Notes under the pieces: generated by a model
What the model was told of the DNA's origin: nothing
The model's input: the letters and a program-made list of their open reading frames with translations, nothing else
Database searches by the model: none
Translations under genes and position numbers: made by a program
Part shown: in pieces, positions 22,668-28,248 of the stretch
Layout of the letters: each line of letters begins with the position of its first letter
Position numbering within the stretch: position 1 is the first letter of the stretch
Source: a virus
Virus record (IMG/VR): IMGVR_UViG_3300044733_004998
Location: 1-28,248 of that record
Length of the DNA: 28,248 nucleotides
Reading direction: 5' to 3' (one strand)

Positions 22668-22691
22668 TCGCGGTGTTATCGCTTAGTGGTT

Positions 22692-23414
22692 ATGTCGGTT
22701 GAGTCGTTACGCAAGCAGGTGCGACAGGCAGATGCGGCCTATCGCGCTGGTGCGGCTGTGATGTCGGACGCGGAGTTCGATGCGCTGGTGGCTGAGCTGC
22801 GTGCTGTGGCGCCGTTTGCACCAGAGCTGCAGGAGCCAGGCGGTGGTACCGCGCTGCTGTCGCTGGATAACTGCCCGCTGGAGGACTGGTGGACGGGTGC
22901 GCCTGTGATTGTGCAGCCGAAGATTGACGGCGCTGCTGTGGGGCTGCGGTACGTGGGCGGTGAGCTTGCGGCGGCGTGGACCCGTAGCGGCCGGGACTGC
23001 ATGGCGGTGTTGCGTGATCTGGTGCCGGCGCAGGTGAGTGAGCGCGGCGTACTGGACGTGCGTGGTGAACTGTGGGGGCATGATGGCCGTCAGAGCGCGC
23101 CAGCAACGGCTCTAAGGCGTATGAAGGGCGGTTCAGGTGGTTTGACCTTCACGGCATTCGGAGGCGCTTTCCAGGAGCTCACAGAGGTCAACGCGATGGC
23201 GCGGCTTGAGGGGCTTGGGTTTGACTGCGTGGATTCGCTGTTCACTACCCGCATCGACGAGGTTGAGCTGCTGCATTCGCGGTGGAAGGCCGGGAAGCTG
23301 TGGAACCGCCCGTTCGCGACCGATGGCGTGGTCGTGAAGGTGGTGTGCCGTGAGCTGCAGCGCGAGCTGGGTGAGTCGAAGCGTGCGCCTTTCTGGGCGT
23401 TGGCGGTGAAGTAG
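22692..23414 (+). CDS. ligA-like: Minimal NAD-dependent DNA ligase (adenylation domain only)
   Basis: A 240-residue protein with the LigA N-terminal domain Ia (LRKQVRQADAAYRAG, MSDAEFDALVAELRA, residues 6-38) that binds NMN, and the nucleotidyltransferase core. The core has KIDG at 77-80 with the AMP-accepting Lys77, VLDVRGELW, FATDGVVVKV, and the final PFWALAVK, which matches the family's P-x-W-A-x-A-x-K motif. LigA is normally about 670 residues, with OB-fold, zinc-finger, HhH and BRCT parts. All of these are absent, and the gene ends exactly after the core. It may seal nicks poorly alone, work with a partner, or act only in adenylate transfer. A promoter lies upstream. Confidence 0.85.
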   Translation: MSVESLRKQVRQADAAYRAGAAVMSDAEFDALVAELRAVAPFAPELQEPGGGTALLSLDNCPLEDWWTGAPVIVQPKIDGAAVGLRYVGGELAAAWTRSGRDCMAVLRDLVPAQVSERGVLDVRGELWGHDGRQSAPATALRRMKGGSGGLTFTAFGGAFQELTEVNAMARLEGLGFDCVDSLFTTRIDEVELLHSRWKAGKLWNRPFATDGVVVKVVCRELQRELGESKRAPFWALAVK

Positions 23415-23821: not shown

Positions 23822-24241
23822 ATGAAATTGATCACAAGACACACCCGCGCCCCACGAGCCGGCGCCTTCATCCGCTGCCCCTGGTGTCAGGAGGTATCGC
23901 TGGTGCATCACTTCTCCTGGAGCGCACTCGGCTGCGAGCACTGTGGAGAGATGGTCGCTAAGGATCGCTGGGGTTACTGCGACCGCAGCGAGGTCGATCC
24001 CCTCACGATCTTGCAGCTCGGCTCACCCGTCACCCTGCGCGATGGCGATGAGTGGGCGACCTGGATGCCTGCTGGTGATTGCGTGATCTCGATGTATGGC
24101 ACCGGAGGCAGTCGCTCGACGATGCGCAATCGGGTTGAGGGTCGCATTCAGGTGACGCCTGAGGTTGCGTTGCGTCAGGTGCTTACGCATCTTGACTACG
24201 GCTGGAAACTTGATGCACGCGGCAGGAAGGACGCGGAATGA
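23822..24241 (+). CDS. Zinc-ribbon protein
   Basis: A 139-residue protein with a zinc ribbon at the N-terminus: CPWC (residues 19-22) and CEHC (38-41). The remaining 95 residues are strand-rich, with VTLRDGDEWATWMPAGD and a C-terminal helix-strand (VALRQVLTHLDYGWKL). No enzyme motif is visible. ATG 23822 is used because upstream residues in this frame are Arg/Cys-rich noise. The TGA overlaps the next ATG by 4 nt (ATGA). Confidence 0.6.
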   Translation: MKLITRHTRAPRAGAFIRCPWCQEVSLVHHFSWSALGCEHCGEMVAKDRWGYCDRSEVDPLTILQLGSPVTLRDGDEWATWMPAGDCVISMYGTGGSRSTMRNRVEGRIQVTPEVALRQVLTHLDYGWKLDARGRKDAE

Positions 24242-24507
24242 GCACTGGATCGAAGTCGCTCAGGCTGGCTGATCAGCTCGTGCGTGAGCCATGGGCATGG
24301 CCTGGTGGTTACCCCTTGTATGCGGTAATGGATGACGGCAGTGTGATTTGTCGGCTTTGCGCGGAAGAAGAGCGGGAGTGGATTGCGCTGACCGACGGTC
24401 GCGACGGGTGGTGTGTGGTGCGGCTTGAGGCGAATTGGGAGGGCGAGTGCATGTGTTGCGATTGCTGCGGCAGATGGATTGAGGCGGCTTATGGGCGGGA
24501 GGGGTAG
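24238..24507 (+). CDS. Cyanophage-type WPGGYP zinc-ribbon protein
   Basis: An 89-residue protein with WAWPGGYPLYAVMDDGSVICRLC (18-41), GRDGWCVVRLEANWEG (53-69) and a final CMCCDCCGRWIEAAY. The WPGGYP-x-YAV-DDG ... W-V-V-x-EANWE ... C-x-x-CG order is one I recall as common in cyanobacterial and cyanophage hypothetical proteins. The cysteines probably bind zinc. It is the last gene before the long gene-free stretch and the compositional change. Confidence 0.7.
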   Translation: MSTGSKSLRLADQLVREPWAWPGGYPLYAVMDDGSVICRLCAEEEREWIALTDGRDGWCVVRLEANWEGECMCCDCCGRWIEAAYGREG

Positions 24508-24833
24508 GGACTCGGGGCCTGCGGGTTTTTATTGCATATAGATGCGGGCAAAAAATATTAGGAACTTGTAGGGGGGTGGTTCTTAGGGCCTTTGCGTACA
24601 CATAAGCCTTGTTTCGTTTTTAGGTGTTTTTGCGCTATGTCTGCGGACGGCGGCGCGAGGCCCCTGGCCCTGGCCGTCAAAATAAATATCCTATTCTTTA
24701 TAAATAGCGCCACACGGTTTGCATCAGCATGCAATCGCCAATGCAGCGGCAGGTGTCACGAACTCGCGGTGAGTTAATGACAGCGACAATGCGATTGCGA
24801 GGTTCGGTGACACGAACGCGCGGGGTGTTTCAA

Positions 24834-24858: not shown

Positions 24859-24877
24859 CTGCAACTTGCGCCGGTCA

Positions 24878-25020
24878 GGTGATGCTCACCGACCCGTTGA
24901 GTAGGTGATGCTCACCGACCCGTTGAGTAGGTGATGCTCACCGACCCGTTGAGTAGGTGATGCTCACCGACCCGTTGAGTAGGTGATGCTCACCGACCCG
25001 TTGAGTAGGTGATGCTCACC
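24878..25020. repeat. 26-bp tandem repeats with palindromic core (5.5 copies)
   Basis: Five exact copies of a 26-bp unit start at 24878, 24904, 24930, 24956 and 24982. A sixth, partial copy (25008-25020) ends exactly after the core. Each unit begins with GGTGATGCTCACC, a hyphenated palindrome (GGTGA/TCACC around TGC), followed by GACCCGTTGAGTA. 26 is not a multiple of 3, so the block is not a coding repeat. Identity of all copies points to recent amplification or strong selection. An iteron, operator or partition-type array is possible. Confidence 0.9.
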
Positions 25021-25157
25021 GGCGCACGCGCCGAACTGGCGACGCGTCGACGCCGACGCACGCGAACGCGGCCGGCATGCGATAACGGTCGCGCCGGCCG
25101 TTGCGCTAGTGGCAACGCGTCCGCGTGGCAATCCGGCACACGTGCCCTATGCATGGC

Positions 25158-25186
25158 TTGCCATGCGGCGCGCGCGACCTTATATA
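25158..25186 (+). promoter_or_regulatory. Promoter of the cargo cassette
   Basis: TTGCCA (25158-25163) and TATATA (25181-25186) are 17 bp apart. The predicted start of transcription, near 25193, lies about 20 bp before the ATG at 25214. That leader is almost wholly the element GTTACCGCTTACCGCTT. Confidence 0.6.
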
Positions 25187-25213
25187 TGGATGCGTTACCG
25201 CTTACCGCTTGCC

Positions 25214-25849
25214 ATGCTGACCCTTTCGCTTGTTGCATCCGCCGCGCACGCCGCCGGCGTGGCGCATGCGGACGTTGTGCCGTTCGCGTGGGTTTCGGAC
25301 GTTGTGCGCACCGAAACCGCTTACCGCGCGTCGCTGGAATCAGCGCAACGCGCCGGCAACGTTTCGGACGCCGACGCCGCGCGCCGTCTTACCGAATCGA
25401 TCGGCCGCGTTTGTGACGCGGTCGCGGACGCCGGCGATGGATGGAACGTCGCGCCGGTCGTTGCGCTCGAACGCGGCAACCATGCCGACGCCGGTACGTT
25501 GCACGCTTGCGGCATTCCATATGTTCGGCCGCTTGAAACGGTCGCCGGCGGTTACGTTGCGCGCGGTCGCTCCGGTGCGGCCGTTGCGTTCGATTCAATC
25601 GTGGACGCCGTCGCGCACGCCGCCGGTCCGGTCGCGCCGGTCATTCTGCCCGGGGAAGACGCCGACGCCGTCGCGGCTGTGCTCGCGATTCGCGCCGACG
25701 CGGCCGCCGGTCGCCGTGTGAGTCTTGCCGACCTTGCGCGCGCGCAGTCTGCTGCGATTCGCGCGGACGGTGACGCCGCGCACGCGCGCGGCATTGCACG
25801 CGCCGCCGGCATGCGCGCCGCGATCAATGCCGAACTGGCGCGCGACTGA
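25214..25849 (+). CDS. Cassette gene 1: Ala-rich protein, possibly exported
   Basis: A 211-residue, very Ala-rich, Asp-rich protein of unknown family. It starts MLTLSLVASAAHAAGV, which looks like the hydrophobic and cleavage part of a signal peptide. An alternative ATG at 25190 would add MRYRLPLA and give a classical signal peptide, but that start would precede the predicted transcription start. 25214 is preceded by the TTACCGCTT element shared by all four cassette genes. The rest alternates helices and strands (WNVAPVVALERGNHADAG, IPYVRPLETVAGGYVARG). It ends AINAELARD. Its GC-rich, GAA/CTT/TTG codon use is unlike the genes left of 24.5 kb. Confidence 0.6.
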   Translation: MLTLSLVASAAHAAGVAHADVVPFAWVSDVVRTETAYRASLESAQRAGNVSDADAARRLTESIGRVCDAVADAGDGWNVAPVVALERGNHADAGTLHACGIPYVRPLETVAGGYVARGRSGAAVAFDSIVDAVAHAAGPVAPVILPGEDADAVAAVLAIRADAAAGRRVSLADLARAQSAAIRADGDAAHARGIARAAGMRAAINAELARD

Positions 25850-25877
25850 CACGCTTACCCTTTACCGCTTAGCTGCC

Positions 25878-26183
25878 ATGCATTCCCCTTTTAGATACGT
25901 TCCCGGTTGCACCGTCACCTATAGCGGCGCGACTGACACGCGCGGTTCGCAATGGGTTGCCGTGATCAAACGCGGTACAACGGCCGCCGATCGATTCCGC
26001 GCGACCGTTCCGTACGCGGAGGGTCCGGACGCGGCCGCGCTTGCCGTGGTTGAACGCTTCAATCGCGCTATGGGTGCCGATTGGCGTTTGATCGGCGCTG
26101 CGCTGTCACTTGACGGCGGCAACGCCTACGCGTATCCCGTCGGATCCGCCGAACTGGCGCCCATTGTTCCCCTTACCGCTTGA
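25878..26183 (+). CDS. Cassette gene 2: small hypothetical protein
   Basis: A 101-residue protein with VTYSGATDTRGSQWVAVIKRG (strand pair), then AAALAVVERFNRAMGADWRLIGAALSLDGGNAYAYPVG. This looks like a small alpha/beta domain with a conserved-looking YSG-TDTRGS start and SLDGG-YAYPV end. I have a vague memory of such small proteins in phage and plasmid cassettes but no named family. ATG 25878 follows the TTTACCGCTT element by 7 nt. Its TGA lies within the next gene's copy of the same element, so genes 2 and 3 are closely linked. Confidence 0.6.
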   Translation: MHSPFRYVPGCTVTYSGATDTRGSQWVAVIKRGTTAADRFRATVPYAEGPDAAALAVVERFNRAMGADWRLIGAALSLDGGNAYAYPVGSAELAPIVPLTA

Positions 26184-26187
26184 AACC

Positions 26188-26913
26188 ATGCCTGCAACCG
26201 TTACCCTTGCGCTCCCGGACGGCGCCACGATCGACGCGCCGGCTCGTTGGCGCGGTCGCGCGCTTGCCGTGCATGCGCCGGTTAATCACGTACGCGACGG
26301 CAAGCAAACGCGCGGCCTATGGGTCATCTCCGGCCACGTGCACGGATTGATGGCCGGAACGTTCCGCGGACCATTGCGCGACGCGATCGCGCTTGCGCGC
26401 TTGTGGGATGACGCGTTCGCGGCCGCGTTGCCGGCGTCGCGCGTTTCGGCGCCGTCGCTTGCGCAATGGGAGCATGCGCGCCAATGGTCGTTGCAAGTAA
26501 CCGGCGCCGAACCGGCGACCGGTCCCGGACCGTCGGCCGATGCAATCCGCATGCGCGAACGCGTCGCGGCCGTCGACGGTGACGGTGCCGAGCAGTTCCC
26601 GGCAACGCCAACGATGACGCCGGCCGGTCCCGGTCGCGTTCGATTCGCGCGCCGCTTAAACAACGGCCGCGAACGCTTGCGCAATCCCGAAACCGGCAAA
26701 GCTTTACGGATGGACGGCGACGTCGCGGCGTTTAAGGGTCCGGACCCGTTAACGCCGGTGTTTCGCTTGCTGTGGCGCGGCCAATGGGTCGACGTTCCAA
26801 CAACGGCCGAGCTTATGGAGTGGAGTCTTGACGGCGTCGCCGAAACGCCGGACGGGTCGCGCGTTGAGCCTGACGCGCCGGATTCGTGGCTGAGCTTGCT
26901 TGGCATTGTCTAA
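26188..26913 (+). CDS. Cassette gene 3: hypothetical protein
   Basis: A 241-residue protein. The N-terminal half has TRGLWVISGHVHGLMAGTFRG and AIALARLWDDAFAAALP, a strand-turn-helix unit. The middle (105-150) is a Pro/Gly/Ala linker, and the C-terminal part has a basic strand region (RVRFARRLNNGRERL) and FRLLWRGQWVDVPTTAELMEWSLDG. It might be a two-domain protein with a flexible joint. No catalytic motif is recognised. ATG 26188 follows TTACCGCTT by 6 nt and lies 4 bp after the previous stop. Its codon use matches its cassette neighbours. Confidence 0.6.
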   Translation: MPATVTLALPDGATIDAPARWRGRALAVHAPVNHVRDGKQTRGLWVISGHVHGLMAGTFRGPLRDAIALARLWDDAFAAALPASRVSAPSLAQWEHARQWSLQVTGAEPATGPGPSADAIRMRERVAAVDGDGAEQFPATPTMTPAGPGRVRFARRLNNGRERLRNPETGKALRMDGDVAAFKGPDPLTPVFRLLWRGQWVDVPTTAELMEWSLDGVAETPDGSRVEPDAPDSWLSLLGIV

Positions 26914-26937
26914 AACCCTTACCGCTTACCTAAAACC

Positions 26938-27999
26938 ATGCGCACAAACGCACCGCATCGCTTGCCGGCCGACGTTGCCGGCATGCTTGAAACGTTCGAA
27001 CTGACCTTAGGTTCGTTGCTAACAACAACGTCCGCTAAGGCCGTGCACACGGCCGCCGGCGGAACGTATAACGCCATGCACTACGCGTTACCGCAACGCC
27101 AATTAGCACGCGCGATCGATCCGCGAACCGTTGCGAGCATCGCGCCGCGCGGTTACTTGCCGGAACTGGCGGCGCTTGCGGAACGTACCGGGACCGCCGA
27201 ACTGGCGCGCCGTCACAACGGGTGCATGCATGCAACCGCCGGATGCATTGCAGGCTGCCTAGCAAGCGCCGGCCATGGCGGATTGTCGACGGACGTTGCC
27301 GCGTGTCGCGGACGGCGAACGCTTGCCATGGTCGCCGATCCGGTTACGTATACGCGCGCCATGGTTTATGCGATCGCGGCCGAACTGGCGCGTGCGGAAC
27401 GTCTTGGCATGCCGTGCGCCGTGCGGACGTGCGGAACTGACGAAACGTTCTGGGCCGGACGCGTTGCACCCATAACGCCGGCCGACGCGGTCGCAATCCG
27501 CCGGCGGTTCGGCGTCGACGTTGAAACCGGCGACGCGTTGAATCTTGCCGAAACGTTCGCGCCGATGCGCGCGCGCGGCGCCGTGCGCTTTTATGAATAC
27601 CTAAAGGCCGGCGTCGACGCGCCGACGTCGCCGCTTGCCTGGCTTGCCGCCGGTTGGCAAGACGTCACCGCATCCTTTGCAGCGGACCGGTCGACCGCTT
27701 GCCGTGATGCGATCGCGGCCGTGCGCGCCGGCTTGCGCGTTGCATTCCCGGTCCGTCTTGCGCGCGACGCGGCGCCGCTGCGATCAGTCACGATCGAAAC
27801 CTACGGCGACGCCGTTACGTTGCCGGCGGTCGACGGCGACGCGACCGGCGATGCACGTTGGAACGATCCGGCCGGTTCGGCCGTGATATTGCGGGAGAAA
27901 CGCGCACGCGGTGCGGATCGAACGATCGCGGAACGTTTCACGATCGCGGACGCGCCTACGATCAAACTAGCGGACGGCCGCCTAATTCTCACACGGTAA
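26938..27999 (+). CDS. Cassette gene 4: GP88-family protein
   Basis: A 353-residue protein matching the 'gene product 88' family of phages and plasmids. Landmarks: Cys96, Cys103 and Cys107 in the CMHATAGCIAGCLASAGHGG block, a CRGRRTL element, AVRTCGTDETFW (161-172), FYEYLKAG (218-225) and TASFAADRSTACRDAIAAVRAG (244-265), followed by VAFPVRL. In GP88 proteins these correspond to the Cys cluster, the R-x-N/C-G-T-x-D region, F-Y-DYTK and a Ser/Asn-rich turn. The function of GP88 is not established, and the Cys pattern suggests a metal site. ATG 26938 follows TTACCGCTT by 10 nt. A terminator follows 27 bp after the stop. Confidence 0.75.
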   Translation: MRTNAPHRLPADVAGMLETFELTLGSLLTTTSAKAVHTAAGGTYNAMHYALPQRQLARAIDPRTVASIAPRGYLPELAALAERTGTAELARRHNGCMHATAGCIAGCLASAGHGGLSTDVAACRGRRTLAMVADPVTYTRAMVYAIAAELARAERLGMPCAVRTCGTDETFWAGRVAPITPADAVAIRRRFGVDVETGDALNLAETFAPMRARGAVRFYEYLKAGVDAPTSPLAWLAAGWQDVTASFAADRSTACRDAIAAVRAGLRVAFPVRLARDAAPLRSVTIETYGDAVTLPAVDGDATGDARWNDPAGSAVILREKRARGADRTIAERFTIADAPTIKLADGRLILTR

Positions 28000-28025
28000 G
28001 CGTTACCGCCAAACGAAACCACAAC

Positions 28026-28052
28026 GGCGCCGCTAACAACGGCGCCTTTATT
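28026..28052 (+). terminator. Terminator of the cargo cassette
   Basis: A perfect 7-bp stem GGCGCCG/CGGCGCC (28026-28032 and 28040-28046) with a 7-nt loop is followed by TTTATT. It stands 27 bp after the stop of the GP88-family gene. Confidence 0.75.
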
Positions 28053-28208: not shown

Positions 28209-28232
28209 GGGTCCCTCCCGGCCCCGGGACCC
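28209..28232. other. GGGTCCC/GGGACCC hairpin near the window end
   Basis: An exact 7-bp inverted repeat (28209-28215 and 28226-28232) with a C-rich 10-nt spacer. It is not followed by a U-run, and its role is unknown. Confidence 0.45.
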
Positions 28233-28248
28233 GCGAGGTAATTCGAAT

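Follow-up and report, generated by a model that had tools for sequence, protein, structure and literature searches.

A stretch of viral DNA of 28,248 nucleotides (IMG/VR virus record IMGVR_UViG_3300044733_004998; the whole stretch is hereafter the window) carries near its right end four plus-strand genes, the last of which encodes a protein of the GP88 family. A preliminary description of this DNA had proposed that these genes form a cargo cassette of foreign composition, with one promoter, one terminator and a shared leader element. All four genes were found where that description had placed them: g1 (25214–25849; 211 amino acids), which has a hydrophobic, Ala-rich N-terminus and evolves fast; g2 (25878–26183; 101 amino acids), which has a homologue in L016 (related loci are referred to by such L numbers); g3 (26188–26913; 241 amino acids); and the GP88-family gene (26938–27999; 353 amino acids). 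Profile searches agreed that the first three products belong to no nameable family, bar a weak match of g2 to phrog_3199. Between close relatives, the ratio of non-synonymous to synonymous substitution rates (dN/dS) is 0.04–0.10 for GP88, g2 and g3 (0.04–0.06 for g2 against L003 and L004), which indicates purifying selection; the ratio of 0.8–2 for g1, calculated from few substitutions, does not clearly indicate such selection.

The operon signals were recovered in part. An intrinsic terminator (28026–28052, plus strand) has the stem GGCGCCGCTAACAACGGCGCC-TTTATT at 28026–28046, which is the same in L003 and L004. A putative plus-strand −10 element, TATATAT (25181–25187), was picked out by inspection; the −10-like sequence TATATATGG lies directly 5' of the first leader and is similar in L004, L005, L020 and L031, whereas a consensus sigma-70 scan of the cassette found no promoter above chance. 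The single promoter proposed earlier thus stands on conservation and not on consensus. To the right of the terminator, an inverted repeat, GGGTCCC...GGGACCC (28209–28232), is kept in relatives and adjoins a 13-nt sequence, AGGTAATTCGAAT (28236–28248), with which the window ends.

This sequence is a cohesive-end site (cos). The right ends of the window and of L031, L016, L020 and L034 are AGGTAATTCGAAT or a close variant of it; many terminase-bearing contigs begin with AGGTAATTCGAATCGCT; and the 13-nt AGGTAATTCGAAT is found at both the right and the left ends of independent linear contigs. An apparent Illumina adapter is joined to the first bases of L071, L131 and L136, at their cos end, and such adapter-like sequence shows a physical DNA end directly. 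Both ends are seen on one contig of 58,260 bp (IMGVR_UViG_3300042344_000667), whose left end carries terminase (L069) and whose right end carries the GP88 cassette (L031), while L003, L004 and L005 run through joined cos into the genes for small terminase, large terminase and portal. We conclude from these contig ends that the virion DNA physically ends on the right at base 28248 of the window. A pattern search for the cos-side element, which was unbiased toward GP88, returned ten contigs, eight with enough DNA to judge, and GP88 was the last gene at all eight of these right ends. L016, L028, L030 and L034, which were found through GP88, also show a right-terminal cassette. Judged by these ends, phages of this group regularly carry the cassette as their right-terminal operon.

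On its left, the cassette is bordered by an array of exact repeats, as had been described: 5.6 exact copies of the 26-bp unit AGGTGATGCTCACCGACCCGTTGAGT (24877–25021). The period of 26 recurs in the arrays of L003 (6.5 copies), L031 (10) and L005 (4.1); it is constant between lineages while the sequence changes, the L005 array being different in sequence. Each unit in the window contains the inverted repeat GGTGA-TGC-TCACC, which resembles a site for a regulator or an origin protein.

The array and cos delimit a block whose history differs from that of the backbone. L003 and L031 are 99% identical in ligase, 96% in a tail protein and 73% in primase but 50% in GP88, and TerL is 100% identical between L003 and L069, which is on the same contig as L031. 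Conversely, the window and L003 are 79% identical in ligase and 81% in the tail protein but 98% in GP88. The similarity of GP88 is thus strongly discordant with that of the backbone. When L003 is aligned with L031, similarity breaks off where the array ends and resumes about 120 bp before cos. By these alignments, related phages have evidently exchanged this block as a unit; both the discordance and the breakpoints support the earlier proposal that the genes were acquired and moved together.

One to three elements like GGGACTCGCGAGG, which resemble the cos sequence, stand to the left of the array. Such sites are found at 24507–24600 in the window, at 5669 in L003, at 889 in L005, at 6684 and 6709 in L016, at 8092, 8133 and 8188 in L020, and on the minus strand at about 3330–3390 in L150. 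The copy left of the array is exact (13/13) in L020, and in L005 the sequence at cos is exactly GGGACTCGCGAGG. Since these elements occur both left of the array and at cos, the cassette is flanked by them on both sides, and a role in exchange or termination is possible. L002 matches the window at 99% identity elsewhere, yet carries a different array and two additional small genes before the same cassette (4397–4932 of L002).

Gene turnover also occurs on a finer scale, at the leaders. The shared leader element proposed earlier is real: TTACCGCTT is found shortly 5' of each cassette ATG (25195, 25862, 26173 and 26919). The four plus-strand leaders are TTACCGCTTACCGCTTGCC (25195–25213), directly before the ATG of g1; TTACCGCTTAGCTGCC (25862–25877), before g2; TTACCGCTTGAAACC (26173–26187), which overlaps the end of g2 and encodes its C-terminus, PLTA*, identical in four homologues; and TTACCGCTTACCTAAAACC (26919–26937), before GP88. 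Leaders are similar within one cassette and different between cassette lineages, the lineage forms being CTTACCGCTT (window, L005 and L020), CCCCTTTATCGCTT (L150), CCTTTATCCTTTCC (L030) and CTTATCTCTTACCTGTT (L031). All are pyrimidine-rich and have no Shine–Dalgarno motif; most likely, they load ribosomes without Shine–Dalgarno pairing. L004 and L005 have an additional gene, gene 0, before g1, and in them leader 1 precedes this gene; in the window and L002, which have no gene 0, the upstream part of the gene 0 leader is fused to the start of g1. In L004, which has no g3, leader 3 is joined exactly to the body of GP88. These joints show, at the level of the aligned DNA, that single genes are gained and lost precisely between leader and ATG. 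The leader also occurs outside the cassette: a leader-like TTATCGCTTA (22676–22694) precedes the ligase gene of the window, and leaders stand before other small genes, at 4472 in L002 and 6277 in L016. The ligase open reading frame itself (22686–23414) does not continue past the adenylation domain, and a second, small reading frame (24238–24507) matches a phrog annotated as DNA ligase; the ligase is possibly split or reduced.

The identification of the fourth gene as GP88 was upheld by Pfam PF17338 (E=4e-7; 30.5 bits against a gathering cut-off of 24.4) and by phrog_1617 (4e-17), and each of 33 homologues hits the family at E≤0.1. To our knowledge, the family is widespread and has no assigned function; our literature searches yielded no functional study of GP88 proteins belonging to the PF17338 family. 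A first structure model, made from 6 sequences, was poor (predicted local distance difference test score, pLDDT, of 60) and was not used. The model used has a pLDDT of 85, and Foldseek matches it to viral GP88-domain models (up to E 1.6e-11) and to a Gp37/Gp68-like phage protein, A0A6S4P9N2 (E 1.5e-9; target template modelling score 0.75). The likeness to Gp37/Gp68-like proteins lies in the model; sequence identity is low (17%), and the spacing of the GP88 cysteines, C-x6-C-x3-C, sets it apart from them. Searches of the PDB by fold and by sequence gave no relative, and the weak fold matches, none at E<0.001, are TIM barrels; the protein is predicted to be TIM-barrel-like. Three cysteines (C96-x6-C103-x3-C107) are invariant, which suggests a metal or iron–sulphur site, although their spacing is not that of the CxxxCxxC cluster motif of radical SAM (S-adenosylmethionine) enzymes. 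In a second phage group (L033, L060 and about 30 further loci among L032–L065) a lone GP88 gene of about 70% G+C stands in genomes of 48–50% G+C. This gene has a Pro/Ala-rich N-terminal extension and an excess of repeated words like that described below; in L033 and L060 it lies near ribonucleotide reductase genes.

The unusual composition of the cassette was confirmed, and is more pronounced than had been stated. The AG/CT rho is 0.42, as compared with 0.97 ± 0.07 (range 0.84–1.13) in 163 non-cassette stretches of 3 kb each from related and other phages. In the four genes AG and CT occur 120 times, where 261 ± 12 are expected from backbone codon use (z=−12). Codon use is indeed unusual and common to the genes (GAA 92%, CAA 92%, CCG 79%), but the AG/CT bias is stronger than shuffling the codons of the cassette produces (z −7.6). 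It is present on both strands and in flanking noncoding DNA (rho 0.34 and 0.46; 0.16 in L020), the value of 0.34 being that of the plus-strand noncoding leader region (25022–25185).

The bias extends to longer words. Repeated 8–10-mers are in excess in all cassettes; repeated 10-mers reach 2–3.9 times expectation in seven of them (z 5–15) when protein, codons and dinucleotides are preserved, as compared with expectation itself in two backbone sets. The same excess was found in two lone GP88 genes of the second phage group. The 7-mers that noncoding cassette DNA has in common with the genes outnumber those of dinucleotide-shuffled sequence in nine tests (z 3.5–10.4) but in none of three controls; the leader region has 114 shared 7-mers where 83 ± 8 are expected. 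The repeated words occur irrespective of distance (an observed/expected ratio of about 1 out to 2 kb); they lie mostly in different genes and often in different codon frames.

Which words are favoured and which are forbidden, here called the lexicon, varies between homologous cassettes. L016 and L148 avoid GCGC and CGCG, which are abundant in the window; CCCAGG and CTGGGC are absent from L016, where about 15 are expected; and the AG rho of the GP88 gene is 0.48 in L003 as against 1.13 in L031. Shine–Dalgarno-like words are avoided on the sense strand in most cassettes. Synonymous changes between the window and L003 were uninformative as a test of lexicon upkeep, since the backbone control was also positive. 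By these counts each cassette lineage has a private lexicon, common to its coding and noncoding DNA. Because homologous cassettes differ in lexicon, no single foreign donor explains the composition; the word bias behaves, in every comparison of cassette with backbone, as a DNA-level property that is inherited with the cassette. It is probably not host adaptation either, since L003 and L031 have near-identical backbones and opposite lexicons. The causes that remain are long-range conversion within cassettes, selection of words by a cassette-linked factor, or a cause that we have not thought of.

Replication slippage or template switching could spread short words through a region, producing the surplus of scrambled short repeats known as cryptic simplicity. 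The excess of repeated 8–10-mers has this character, and, within a lineage, the adjoining arrays and the leaders seem to have been homogenised. Nevertheless, local slippage predicts an excess at short distance, and was rejected because the repeated words neither cluster nor decay with distance; moreover, the cassette differs from cryptic simplicity in that its words are cassette-wide, private to a lineage and common to coding and noncoding DNA. Long-range conversion would be a possible form of this process, which as a whole we regard as unlikely, though it deserves serious consideration.

Alternatively, host restriction enzymes, or CRISPR recognition of protospacer-adjacent motifs, might purge short words from the part of the DNA that enters first. 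Its terminal position fits this idea, as does the strong, strand-independent depletion, noncoding DNA included, of AG/CT and GG/CC or of GCGC/CGCG. Purging does not readily account for enriched repeated words, which are also part of the effect, nor for opposite biases in L003 and L031, phages that are nearly identical in terminase, ligase and tail protein. Furthermore, the GP88 genes of the second phage group have a similar word excess and are not shown to lie at a DNA end, so that an end position is not required. We think this explanation distinctly unlikely.

A third proposal is that the lexicon is a signature of self-recognition: a cassette factor, most simply GP88, would act on nucleic acid in a word-dependent manner, and each cassette would have evolved to avoid or to carry the words concerned. 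That the lexicon follows the cassette and not the backbone, spans coding and noncoding DNA, appears in lone GP88 genes of another phage group and includes words wholly absent from L016 despite their expected number all agree with this. However, action of GP88 on nucleic acid is a supposition, with no close fold match in the PDB, and enrichment and depletion are spread across many words with no one clean motif; we give the proposal only a small probability. Its extension, that the lexicon is an identity mark by which such a factor discriminates words, spares or promotes its own cassette and acts on others, so that cassettes would compete and move as self-recognising units, is improbable at present.

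Plain horizontal acquisition, by which the block would retain the composition of a high-GC donor, is also improbable. The cassette has 66% G+C as against 55% in the backbone, and the block does move between backbones. Its G+C content is, however, largely driven by amino acids (0.69 against 0.63 at third codon positions), and an AG rho near 0.4 lies outside usual genomes and far outside the phage DNA measured here. In addition, the repeated-word excess goes beyond codon and dinucleotide content, and a single foreign donor as sole cause was rejected on the differences between homologous lexicons. Choice of codons and codon pairs for strong early expression could account for the marked codon preferences and for the avoidance of Shine–Dalgarno-like words, but the bias exceeds codon shuffles and is found in noncoding DNA, on both strands and across frames; codon adaptation was rejected on these grounds, and a translational origin is very improbable. 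Finally, an assembly chimera of two genomes, which the abrupt change of composition near 25 kb might suggest, merits practically no credence: we found no assembly join, the same junction occurring in homologous contigs of other metagenomes, and one contig has matching cos ends.

We favour, with some confidence, the interpretation that the cassette is an early operon at the right end of a temperate cos phage, swapped as a unit, probably first to enter the cell and concerned with host takeover or counter-defence, its lexicon being inherited with it. An integrase is encoded in the window. The terminase genes lie at the left end, opposite the cassette, an arrangement compatible with a lambda-like order of entry; if the phage behaves like lambda, the right end would be the leading end at injection. 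A leading position in turn favours an immediate-early operon, which would be transcribed as soon as the DNA enters the cell and would serve takeover or counter-defence, GP88 forming the constant core and g1 being among the partners that change quickly. On this analogy, an early module for takeover or counter-defence at the right, probably leading, end is the most likely function of the four genes.

Several observations weigh against this interpretation. Lambda ejects either end first about equally often in vitro (PMC10287942). Among isolates, the nearest terminase has 44–48% identity, and there are several near matches, of which a Synechococcus phage is only one. In the second phage group, the lone GP88 beside ribonucleotide reductase has a similar word excess and lies at no end shown to be terminal. 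Apart from the match of g2, no family was found for g1–g3 in Pfam, NCBIfam or PHROG-type profile searches, and PADLOC models matched none of the four cassette proteins at E≤0.1.

No cassette is annotated at the right end of Synechococcus phage S-LBS1, whose terminase is one of the nearest matches. A scan of genome collections gave one hit, L066 (JAURHQ010000068.1), where a Gammaproteobacteria metagenome-assembled genome includes a GP88 cassette and a phage primase related to that of the window; L066 is probably a phage contig in that bin, and it therefore does not name the host.

The preliminary description was thus half right in its interpretation: the genes do move together, but they are not foreign cargo; they form a regular right-terminal operon whose composition differs between lineages. 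A satellite-type or defence module, which had also been suggested, gained no support, in that PADLOC returned no match, none of the four proteins matched integrase or replication families in profile searches, and the block has a fixed position before cos in relatives. The cassette gives the GP88 family a defined genetic setting, a swappable operon at the end of phage DNA in which GP88 holds a fixed last place. Homologous blocks each keep different favoured and forbidden words, across genes and spacers and independently of the backbone. We know of no precedent for such lineage-private word sets in homologous gene blocks, and compositional tests for 'foreign' DNA would have to allow for them.

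The cassette has features in common with several known systems. Like phage morons, it has its own terminator and a putative promoter of its own, the former found and the latter proposed from conservation, together with atypical composition and variable content at a fixed site; it differs in that the whole block is swapped with a fixed core gene, is located at cos and has a lexicon at the DNA level. The first-step-transfer region of T5 and the leading regions of conjugative plasmids resemble it in terminal position and in the immediate-early role in takeover or counter-defence that we propose, although for the cassette first entry is inferred and no counter-defence gene was recognised. As compared with other members of PF17338 and phrog_1617, GP88 is here the fixed last gene of a cos-terminal operon with an extreme DNA lexicon. 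For the leaders, the nearest published parallel is provided by the start-associated sequences of cluster K mycobacteriophages, which are likewise short, repeated, non-palindromic and in one orientation just 5' of the ATG of non-structural genes, and which also differ in part between phage subgroups (PMC3203893). The cluster K sequences contain the Shine–Dalgarno core AGGAG, whereas the cassette leaders are of the pyrimidine-rich TTACCGCTT type, with no match to that core or to GGGATAGGAGCCC, and, unlike the cluster K elements, coincide with the joints at which genes are gained and lost.

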